Source of the DNA: an uncultured Bacilli bacterium
Lineage (GTDB): Bacteria; Bacillota_I; Bacilli_A; RF39; UBA660
NCBI GenBank assembly: GCA_944331805.1
Contig: CALVIS010000011.1
Span: forward strand, 1 to 35,066
Direction of reading: 5' to 3'
DNA: 35,066 nucleotides
This document shows positions 15,087-25,999 of this stretch, piece by piece. The translations under genes were made by a program, and so were the position numbers. How positions within the stretch are numbered: the stretch's first letter is position 1; every line of letters begins with the position of its first letter. The notes under the pieces are model-generated. The model searched no databases and was not told the DNA's origin. It worked only from the letters and a program-made list of their open reading frames with translations.

Positions 15087-15235
15087 ATTTTCCCTCCTAT
15101 TTTCTTGTCAGTTCATAGTCCCTAGAAAGGTTAAAAGTTCTTGGAATTTTCCCAAGAACTTTTATTTATTAAGAATAGTCCTCGGTAGGATTTACGTTTT
15201 TACCTACTGTCTTGGGTACTTGTTAACTGATTTCT
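15087..15235 (-). promoter_or_regulatory. L10 leader RNA (autoregulatory 5' UTR of rplJL)
   Basis: On the minus strand the conserved core ACCCAAGACAGTAGGT (within 15202-15217) pairs with CCTACCGAGG (15180-15189), the kink-turn-like L10(L12)4-binding element found upstream of rplJ in Firmicutes (Rfam L10_leader). Downstream is a 12-bp hairpin, AAAAGTTCTTGG/CCAAGAACTTTT (15133-15163), ending in four T, in the place of the regulatory terminator. Then CCTTTCTAGGGACTATGAAC leads to the rplJ ribosome binding site. Confidence 0.85.
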
Positions 15236-24146: not shown

Positions 24147-24347
24147 CTACCATTCTATTAATATTCGATAAGTTTCTAAGTAAAAGGAAAAGTCTTTAAT
24201 TCTAGCTTGAAAATTAGAGATAAATTCTCTAGAACTGATTCCTAGAGCGAAAGAAAGTTCTTCTAAACTAATATCTTTTTCTTTAATTAGGTTCATGCAA
24301 TCAGCTTTTATGTTATAAAATAGATTGTCTAATTTTTCATTTATCAT
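24147..24347 (-). CDS. Small helix-turn-helix-like protein
   Basis: The 66-residue protein contains KDISLEELSFALGISSREFI, which fits the helix-turn-helix of Cro/XRE-type regulators (xLxELAxxLGISxxxxS), followed by a helix-rich tail. It is shorter than most stand-alone regulators but within the range of antitoxins. It begins within the stop codon of the gene upstream (one-base overlap at 24347) and ends 8 nt before the next ATG, so all are co-translated. DNA binding is inferred from the motif. It could autoregulate the operon or pair with the RelE-like region of the preceding product. Confidence 0.55.
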   Translation of the reverse strand: MINEKLDNLFYNIKADCMNLIKEKDISLEELSFALGISSREFISNFQARIKDFSFYLETYRILIEW

Positions 24348-25747
24348 TATTTATGATCATCTCCTTTTACGGCTATCATAGCTTTAAATTGTTCAGTAAA
24401 TTCTTTTTGTTGTTTTAAATAATTAGGATTTTGATTGTTTATTTTAGTTAAATTTTCATCAATAACATAACTATAAGTTTGAGCGATAGTATTTGAGTTA
24501 TCATAAATATCACTATGAGGAGCGAATGTTAATACTAGTACTTTATTATCTTTAGTTCTGACATAAGAAACACACATATTAGAACTCTTATTTATGTAGA
24601 TGTTATATCGTTTATTATTAGATAATAATTTAGTATGTTTCTTACCTTTCTCGTAATCATGTAACCCTTTTTTAAATTTTTCGATAAGGGATAGACAATG
24701 TTTTTTCTCTTCTTTATTAAATTTATTTATTTGAAAGAAAGAATTATTATTTTCATCTAATAAGAAATAAATTTCATTAGTTGTTTTTTCTTCTTCTTTC
24801 TTTTCTTCTGTTAAAATTTTATCTAAGGATATAGCTTTGTTATATTCTTCTTTAAGCATATTAAAGTAATCCCTTATATCTTCTAATGTAGCGGTAGGGT
24901 TATTTAGTTGTGATTCTAATTCTGCTTTTACTTCAAACATATCTAATATTAAAACTGTCATTGAAATATCTTTATATTGAAATTCATCAATTCCTAATGT
25001 AGATAAATCCAAGTTATCTTTACTTTCCTGCTCTTTTATGGCTCTTGACATCTCTTTATTGTAATTTATATACTTCTCATCTTTACCATTAATTAAATAA
25101 TAATATTTGGTCATGATAGATTCTATATTGTTTTTTATTTTATAATATTCACCTTTTATATTATTTAGCTCTTCTTGATTTATATTTGGTGTTTCTTCTT
25201 CTGTGAATAACGATTCTATTTCTTCGTGAGGTGTTGGTATTTTATGAGATTTAAGTTTTTCTTCTTTTTTAGTGACACTTTTACAACTTTCATAAGCAAT
25301 TTCTTTTAAAATACTTATTTTTTCTTCATCTGTAATATTTGCCTTTAAGATAAATGAGGCTTTGGCAGTAAGACTTTTTTCATCTAATTCTTTTATTTGT
25401 GATTCTAAACTTTTAACTTGTAATTGATATTTTTCTATATTACTAAGACAATCTTTTACTATTTCATCCGTTAATATGTTATTTATAGCGATTTGAACTT
25501 GTTCTATTTCTAAAGCATTGTTATCATAAAAGAATTTAAGAATTTGAAAGTTAGAAGTAAGTTGAGGAAATAAAAGCAGGAACGTCTTTTGATGCTCTAA
25601 CAAGTTTTCTATATATCTTTTTTTATCATTTATTGGCATTATTAAAATGTTAGCAATGTTTATCATTGTTTTATATTTATTTAGTTCTCTTTTTAATTTT
25701 TGTGATTGTTCTTCTAATAATTGTTCATATTTTTCTTTTGGTTCCAT
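24347..25747 (-). CDS. Coiled-coil protein with a possible RelE/ParE-like C-terminal domain
   Basis: The 466-residue product starts at ATG 25747 with AAGGAGG 7-8 nt upstream. Residues 1-330 are mostly helical and coiled coil (KEKYEQLLEEQSQKLKRELN, QLQVKSLESQIKELDEK). The C-terminal 110 residues change character: two helices (FNKEEKKHCLSLIEKFKKGL), then strands RYNIYINKSSNMCVSYVRT, NKVLVLTFAPHSDIYDNS. This order, ending in VLxFxxHSDIY, resembles RelE/ParE toxins, which end in a strand followed by HRxxVY. The match is by eye and unproven. It is the first gene of the operon, placed directly after a terminator hairpin and a short G-tract ORF. Confidence 0.6.
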   Translation of the reverse strand: MEPKEKYEQLLEEQSQKLKRELNKYKTMINIANILIMPINDKKRYIENLLEHQKTFLLLFPQLTSNFQILKFFYDNNALEIEQVQIAINNILTDEIVKDCLSNIEKYQLQVKSLESQIKELDEKSLTAKASFILKANITDEEKISILKEIAYESCKSVTKKEEKLKSHKIPTPHEEIESLFTEEETPNINQEELNNIKGEYYKIKNNIESIMTKYYYLINGKDEKYINYNKEMSRAIKEQESKDNLDLSTLGIDEFQYKDISMTVLILDMFEVKAELESQLNNPTATLEDIRDYFNMLKEEYNKAISLDKILTEEKKEEEKTTNEIYFLLDENNNSFFQINKFNKEEKKHCLSLIEKFKKGLHDYEKGKKHTKLLSNNKRYNIYINKSSNMCVSYVRTKDNKVLVLTFAPHSDIYDNSNTIAQTYSYVIDENLTKINNQNPNYLKQQKEFTEQFKAMIAVKGDDHK

Positions 25748-25772
25748 AATATCCTCCTTTATTTTTAACATG

Positions 25773-25803
25773 AAAAAGAACAGAATAAAGTTATTCTGTT
25801 CTT
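25773..25803 (-). terminator. Strong hairpin terminator, likely an attenuator of the four-gene operon
   Basis: Thirteen-base arms (25791-25803 and 25776-25788, AAGAACAGAATAA and its complement) leave a two-base spacer and are followed by five T on the minus strand. The ribosome binding site of the next gene is only about 15 nt beyond. No promoter fits between hairpin and gene, so transcripts from upstream must pass it. A TATAAT at 25809-25814 without a good -35 could instead start transcripts at the hairpin. Confidence 0.8.
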
Positions 25804-25898
25804 AAAGTATTATAAAAGAAAGTAATTGTATTATTACTTATAGTTTTATTTAAACTGCCCCCCCCCAGGTAACAAATTGTAAACATGAAATTTGACAT
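25791..25898 (-). CDS. 35-codon leader ORF containing a nine-G tract
   Basis: The ATG at 25898 follows AAGGAG with 7 nt spacing, an excellent ribosome binding site. The product would be MSNFMFTICYLGGGSLNKTI followed by SNNTITFFYNTLRTE. The run of nine G encodes part of Leu-Gly-Gly-Gly. The TAA stop (25791-25793) is the last three bases of the 5' arm of the terminator. With eight or ten G the frame stops after about 16-17 codons near 25848. A candidate promoter is TTGTAA/TACTAT around 25925-25952, with TATAAT nearby; it is weak. The ORF could be a regulatory leader peptide, a phase-variable small protein, or chance coding inside a small RNA. Confidence 0.5.
   Translation of the reverse strand: MSNFMFTICYLGGGSLNKTISNNTITFFYNTLRTE
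25858..25866. repeat. Homopolymer of nine C (nine G on the coding strand)
   Basis: This is the only such run in a very AT-rich window. Poly-G/C tracts of this length are known sites of slipped-strand length change. It lies in frame inside the short ORF at 25791-25898. Confidence 0.95.
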
Positions 25899-25999
25899 TC
25901 TTACTCTCCTTCTTTCTGTTTTTATAGTAACATATTATACTACAACTTACAATAATTTCTTCTTCTTTGATGACACAACTTTACTTTAGAATTTTATTT

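Follow-up and report, generated by a model that had tools for sequence, protein, structure and literature searches.

The window analysed here, a stretch of 35,066 nt from an uncultured Bacilli bacterium (contig CALVIS010000011.1; the genome, G000, comprises 1.37 Mb and is 69% complete), carries on its minus strand an operon of four genes preceded by a short leader (Table 1). None of the operon's products found a significant match in Pfam, PADLOC or NCBIfam. The AlphaFold model of the first, a protein of 466 residues (mean pLDDT 67, pTM 0.34, with a poor C-terminus), predicts a long helical part and, after it, four strands in a C-terminal region of low confidence. Scanning of the window against Rfam yielded no known leader or riboswitch at the leader site; elsewhere, at 15122-15234 on the minus strand, a ribosomal protein L10 leader (RF00557) scored above its gathering threshold.

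Table 1. Features of the leader and of the operon behind it, in window coordinates.
Feature	Position	Strand	Remarks
Candidate -10 of the leader promoter, TATAAT	25934..25939	-	from sequence; compare the extended -10 of the family
Leader ORF ribosome binding site, AAGGAG	25906..25911	-	from sequence
Leader ORF, 35 codons and TAA	25791..25898	-	terminator-reaching phase (G9)
Conserved core GTTTACAATTTGTTACCT with G9	25858..25884	-	14-15 copies in the genome
G9 slippage tract	25858..25866	-	begins at base 3 of codon 11 and ends at base 2 of codon 14
Out-of-phase stops	25846..25852	-	G8: TAA 25852-25850; G10: TAA 25848-25846
Outer 5' arm, pairing with SD/start of the gene	25804..25817	-	MFE fold
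Inner hairpin, intrinsic terminator	25776..25803	-	stem of 12 bp, loop of 4 nt; T-run at 25777-25773
Outer 3' arm, taking in GAGG from the SD as well as the first operon gene's start codon	25742..25756	-	MFE fold
First controlled gene, 466-aa helical protein	24347..25747	-	no Pfam/NCBIfam/PADLOC match
Second gene, 66 aa	24147..24347	-	adjoins the first gene in relatives too
Third gene, about 615 aa	22294..24153	-	no significant family match
Fourth gene, 97 aa	22013..22306	-	no family match

An initial annotation of this DNA had proposed that the leader is a phase-variable attenuator, and most of its geometry holds: the 35-codon ORF with its ribosome binding site and the tract of nine G at codons 11-14 lie where it placed them, and the tract is the sole run of seven or more G in the window (0.07 overlapping matches expected). 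The terminator it described, of 13 bp and with the stop codon as the last three bases of the 5' arm, required correction in part; the stop is indeed at the end of that arm, but the stem (-12.8 kcal/mol) has 12 bp, and the TAA at 25793-25791 contributes two bases to the stem and one to the loop. With eight or ten G, translation would end 8 or 12 nt past the tract, that is 42-46 nt ahead of the hairpin (about 45 had been given), and the AAAGGAGG of the first operon gene begins 13 nt 3' of the T-run, within the 15 nt or so that had been claimed. The TATAAT at 25814-25809, which had been named as a possible source of a refuting downstream transcript, was considered as a promoter of the operon and rejected: it is accompanied by no matching -35 box, and it is not conserved, relatives reading CATAAT or CATGGT.

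The leader has at least 14 relatives inside its own genome, where a DNA search identified a dozen places and a pattern search raised the total to 15 copies; all 12 tracts of eight or more G in that genome lie inside copies of the element. Within Candidatus Onthousia, whose genomes (class Bacilli) derive from gut metagenomes, the element is present in 32 of 35 genomes, with several hundred matches and at most 28 in any one genome. The set read for the family comprises 114 distinct copies from about 25 genomes; leader ATG, SD and G tract are all present in 103 of these, and an intrinsic terminator, with stem and T-run, is predicted between leader and gene in the copies analysed. The core of the attenuator idea is well supported by about 100 paralogues and seven orthologues, and the window's leader is one member of a genus-wide family and no lone oddity. 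A search for the core in viral contigs found no copy.

The genes that follow the element (unreadable in five copies) all encode an N-terminal membrane or signal segment, such as MKKRENIIIVVVLVVMVIAIVGVSYAAFNYS... or MKKILLETSFSKIYMIVMIIITLLILGGYFSYAMF..., with the exception of the window and of one incomplete reading; one of the proteins has a weak match to DUF6273. Judged by these N-termini, nearly all copies appear to precede genes for surface proteins, and the window copy is, on its sequence, an atypical member of the family, coupled to an operon of another kind. Some copies begin right after the stop codon of a preceding surface gene, and the leader is thus intergenic. About twelve copies (L029, L033, L066, L069, L071, L073, L079, L107, L144, L145, L153 and L160) have some 100 nt between terminator and gene, and several of them carry a second inverted repeat; in this group the leader does not sequester the SD, and the genes possibly have their own promoter or another layer of control. 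A further copy, L036 on contig 36 of G000, is degenerate, with a long leader ORF, CTGAG7 and no terminator, and its ORF continues directly into surface-protein-like sequence.

Starting at the first ATG with a ribosome binding site upstream of the tract, the end of translation was scored for the tract as found, for one base fewer and for one base more, and the 5' arm of the terminator is reached in one, and only one, of the three phases in 100 of 103 copies. The stop codon of this reaching phase ends between -4 and +3 nt from the end of the arm; the other two phases stop 4-28 nt past the tract, mostly at 8 and 19 nt. Dinucleotide-preserving shuffles of the stretch between tract and arm gave an expectation of 39 +/- 4.8 copies, and when the set was reduced to 11 copies less than 70% alike, all 11 were phased, against 4.0 expected; chance falls far short of explaining the arrangement. 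The distance from leader start to tract, compared in 91 canonical copies, takes 17 different values between 25 and 109 nt, and yet 85 of the 91 hold one frame, so that changes in leader length come in threes, a sign of translation. Upstream of the leader ATG, at 20-60 nt and mostly at 42-44 nt, an extended -10 element (TGnTAnnnT) occurs in 65 of 104 copies, versus 9 of 104 for a control window.

In minimum free energy folds, the terminator is the inner portion of a longer hairpin, whose outer 5' arm (family consensus TTACTTTCTTTCATTAT) pairs with the SD of the downstream gene in 84 of 95 copies. The duplex between arm and SD has a median energy of -15.1 kcal/mol, compared with a mean of -8.4 kcal/mol for other gene starts of the window, and the median z-score of the fold is -5.6. 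Compensatory changes are found in both stems (one inner pair, for instance, has gone from T-A to C-G in 22 of 87 copies, and one outer pair from T-A to A-T in 15); pairing was counted with anchors, since MAFFT misplaced the stems and a first covariance model in consequence held only five pairs and served as a sequence profile only. When a ribosome is placed at the reaching stop in a fold model, the inner stem falls from 0.96 to 0.00, and the short phases keep it; the SD still remains paired, as the ribosome leaves the outer arm exposed again behind it. RNA polymerase passes the T-run before it makes the outer 3' arm, which thus can be of no help to termination, and the outer pairing most likely silences RNA that has been read through. 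It is likely, although this could be wrong, that the SD pairing, which the initial annotation had not noted, acts as a second, translational layer, which would be opened by passing leader ribosomes.

Tract length, which had been expected to be variable if the proposal was right, is indeed not fixed among related genomes: it ranges from 5 to 12 G, and as each genome has one assembled length, the variation is that between copies and between species. Two pairs of copies with identical 155-nt flanks have unlike tracts (G6/G9 and G11/G9); the members of the second pair are orthologues, from contig 5 of G000 and contig 64 of G029, that share about 99% identity along 4.9 kb, G11 being the reaching and G9 the short state. 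Of 29 pairs whose copies are 95% or more alike, 15 have unequal tracts, and control runs of five or more A or T differ in 15 of 82 comparisons, both being counts from related copies that are not independent.

Orthologues of the first operon gene with upstream DNA are found in seven relatives, all of which retain leader and hairpin, in keeping with the conservation that the initial annotation had called for, and gene order is kept where checked. The tract is still G9 in the closest relative only and has been lost in the other six, which have GGAGGTGG, G6, GGAGGGGG, TGGGGG (two genomes) and GTGGGGG. Nonetheless, the leader is open to or through the hairpin in all seven, in more than one frame: four stop at the window position, two in another frame 11 nt earlier, with leaders that end in LIKISVIIVLLSFIMT and a stop codon, and one runs through the whole terminator. 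The residues at the tract read LGGG, LGGS, LEVAD, LEGAA or CGGS. What is conserved is the arrival of translation at the hairpin, and neither peptide nor codons. Lineages that lose the tract keep the reaching state, and this long phase is therefore taken as the ON state, which is most likely correct; by its sequence, the window copy would presently be in the ON phase. With the tract eroded in six of seven relatives and the leader open in every one, this locus may hold a device that is all but locked ON, with switching of minor importance there.

Across the family the picture is one of OFF states. Only 13 of about 100 copies, the window included, are at present in the reaching phase, which is rarer than a random one third (p = 6e-6), and of the 60 copies with G9, 52 are in a short phase that a single deletion would turn into the reaching one. 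This excess calls for either a bias toward OFF or an effect of assembly; if each gene were ON in a minority of cells, consensus assemblies would come out OFF, and assembly effects are possible.

The leader, its one-of-three phasing, the hairpin, the SD pairing and the variation of the tract are read from the sequence, and together they make it quite probable that the element is a phase-variable, translation-controlled attenuator, with the reaching tract length as ON. RNA polymerase would start upstream of the leader ORF, trailed by a ribosome which, with the right tract length modulo three, would read on until the stop where the 5' arm of the terminator ends, and there its footprint would block the hairpin and allow the operon to be transcribed. 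With the other two lengths, the ribosome would stop about 40 nt earlier, the hairpin would form and transcription would end. In RNA that escapes termination, pairing between the sequence just ahead of the terminator and the ribosome binding site of the gene would be a probable second lock, which passing leader ribosomes would open, and slippage of the G tract would flip the state at random. Termination, antitermination by the ribosome, the rate of slippage, the assignment of ON and OFF and the translational layer are what we infer.

A different way for a homopolymer to act is suggested by relatives outside the genus, in which a related core (GTTNAC-N5-GTTNAC-NN-G8+) occurs in further genera. 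In g80 (G113), the core GTTAACAAAAAGTTGACATG9 lies between -35 and -10 boxes that are perfect and 16 nt apart, in the order TTGACA, 16 nt containing G9, TATAAT; in g36 it is arranged much as in g80, with TTGACT-18-TATAAT. The core pattern has 28 matches in G113 alone, and at loci L296-L300, L306 and L311 of that genome, 9-10 G lie between TTGACA or TTGACG and TATAAT, before surface-protein genes. If the Onthousia element worked in the same manner, tract length would set promoter strength through the spacing of -35 and -10, as is the case for other phase-variable genes, and ORF and hairpin would be incidental. We regard this as improbable: among Onthousia copies no convincing promoter with -35 and -10 boxes at 15-19 nt was found across the tract, the best scores there being mostly 7-8 of 12 as against 11-12 of 12 in g80. 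In addition, a transcript from such a promoter would start just before the terminator, the promoter motif sits upstream of the leader, and the phasing and coding signals would be left unexplained.

The core can be followed into both settings. In genus g104 (G254, G137), leaders of other sequence, with hairpins that differ from those of Onthousia, follow the same logic before similar surface genes, with one phase going into, up to or through the terminator. The occurrence of the core in leaders (Onthousia, g104) and in promoter spacers (g80, g36) points to one core serving two kinds of switch, with the GTTNAC boxes retained in both. A looser core pattern is found in 6 of 83 sampled genera, and the reversed control pattern in none of them. 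Two loci of genus g3 (L248 and L249, in G182 and G283) have a third arrangement, in which the core with G9 and a terminator-like hairpin, with no leader ATG found, precede the gene of a 121-aa membrane protein; genus g140 (G276; L303, L309) has eight further G8+ core matches, and the single one that was read shows a leader ORF and no clear terminator. It is conceivable, if rather doubtful, that one bacterial family has in the core a portable switching module, which four or more of its genera would have kept, for the most part ahead of surface genes, and which would also mark the 5' edges of exchanged cassettes; were this so, the GTTNAC boxes would have a role of their own, for instance in binding a protein that favours slippage or recombination.

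The clustered GGG codons in a leader ahead of a terminator, many of which read ...VTWGGG..., also evoke the classical attenuators of amino acid metabolism, in which case stalling at Gly (or Trp-Gly) codons would report on charged tRNA. There is little likelihood of this, since frame and codons differ among the orthologues of the window, tracts of 5-12 G vary the codons, and translation mostly ends just past the tract, which would defeat sensing. An equally slim prospect is that the leader peptide itself, a small membrane or regulatory peptide made in one phase only, is the functional product, the hairpin being an ordinary terminator. The reaching-phase peptides do have the motif ITFFHYD... in common, and close orthologues share the peptide; yet two orthologues of the window are in a second frame and one runs through the terminator, with the DNA conserved, the stop is placed according to where the hairpin arm ends, and the conserved stretch doubles as the RNA arm that pairs with the SD. 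The conservation of arrival rather than of peptide or codons argues against both of these readings.

The core also coincides with breaks in similarity at mosaic surface-gene loci (L266/L267, L278 and L279, belonging to G030, G025 and G011). L266 and L267, which are one locus in two species, are about 100% identical for the 900 nt or more that end at the core and, beyond it, mostly 80-95% identical, and L278 concerns paralogues with unrelated upstream DNA that are 100% identical for about 1 kb starting at the core. These sequences suggest that genes were converted or cassettes exchanged, the 5' edge of the exchange falling at the core; a site-specific recombination there was weighed and dropped, since gene conversion accounts for the loci. 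That the core acts above all as a hot spot of recombination, bounding exchangeable surface-gene cassettes on their 5' side, with phase variation secondary, is the least probable of the readings, as ordinary gene conversion between copies whose shared homology starts at the core gives the same picture and the one-of-three phasing would go unexplained.

The attenuator reading has a precedent, contrary to the initial statement that no such system had been described. In Streptococcus gallolyticus, slippage of a GCAGA repeat in the leader ORF of the pil1 operon shifts the end of translation relative to a terminator (PMC3894217); a longer leader raises transcription, and deletion of the terminator and mutants of the start and stop codons were analysed (Danne et al. 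2014, PMC3894217). The pil3 operon is reported to behave likewise (PMC3894217). Both systems place a repeat tract within a leader ORF that has its own ribosome binding site, slippage shifts the frame, the short phase stops (in pil) 39-49 nt before the terminator and the long phase just before, in or past it, and the products under control are surface structures, putatively so in Onthousia, with most cells being, or expected to be, OFF. Prevention of termination by the ribosome is known from experiment for pil and is predicted from sequence for Onthousia. On each feature that sequence can address, the Onthousia element agrees with pil1. The pil switches consist of GCAGA pentamers at two pilus operons, whereas the tract of Onthousia consists of G only and recurs in at least a dozen copies per genome, before genes that would form a regulon in many of the genomes. 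Of the three phases, two are ON in pil1 and one in Onthousia, and Onthousia alone has a stop whose position is fixed where the 5' arm ends, and the predicted additional sequestration of the SD. The lineages differ, and no sequence homology is claimed.

Attenuators of the trp/his type resemble the Onthousia element in their leader ORF and terminator and in that the position of the ribosome decides on read-through; the latter, in contrast, has neither conserved regulatory codons nor a conserved frame, and takes tract length (a state of the DNA) as its input; no alternative antiterminator hairpin was found in it. In translation attenuation of the erm type, the downstream SD is paired in a hairpin that leader translation can open. 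The Onthousia element differs in having an intrinsic terminator and a slippage tract and no drug-sensing stall, the opening of its SD being a prediction. Homopolymer switches in promoter spacers include the core with G9 in g80, before similar surface genes, and in g36; in Onthousia, the tract lies in an ORF behind the promoter and not between -35 and -10. No further description of such a switch was found in the literature searched, which covered few subscription journals. What appears to be new is that the tract is a homopolymer, that a whole genus makes use of such switches, that a double lock is predicted, and that sister genera employ the core as a promoter spacer.

Phase variation by leader attenuation can be recognised in assemblies through its one-of-three phasing, and can thus be sought elsewhere, while the natural occurrence of promoter-type and attenuator-type versions of one element offers a comparison for the evolution of switches. 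A mechanism known from two pilus operons of one streptococcus would, by its sequence traces, be a standard means of controlling a large family of surface proteins in Candidatus Onthousia, whose members are uncultured bacteria of the animal gut. In many of the genomes, at least a dozen one-in-three switches, each independent of the others, would give a lineage of cells with a small genome very many surface states, and with such a switch before a dozen or more surface-protein genes, each cell probably displays a different surface.
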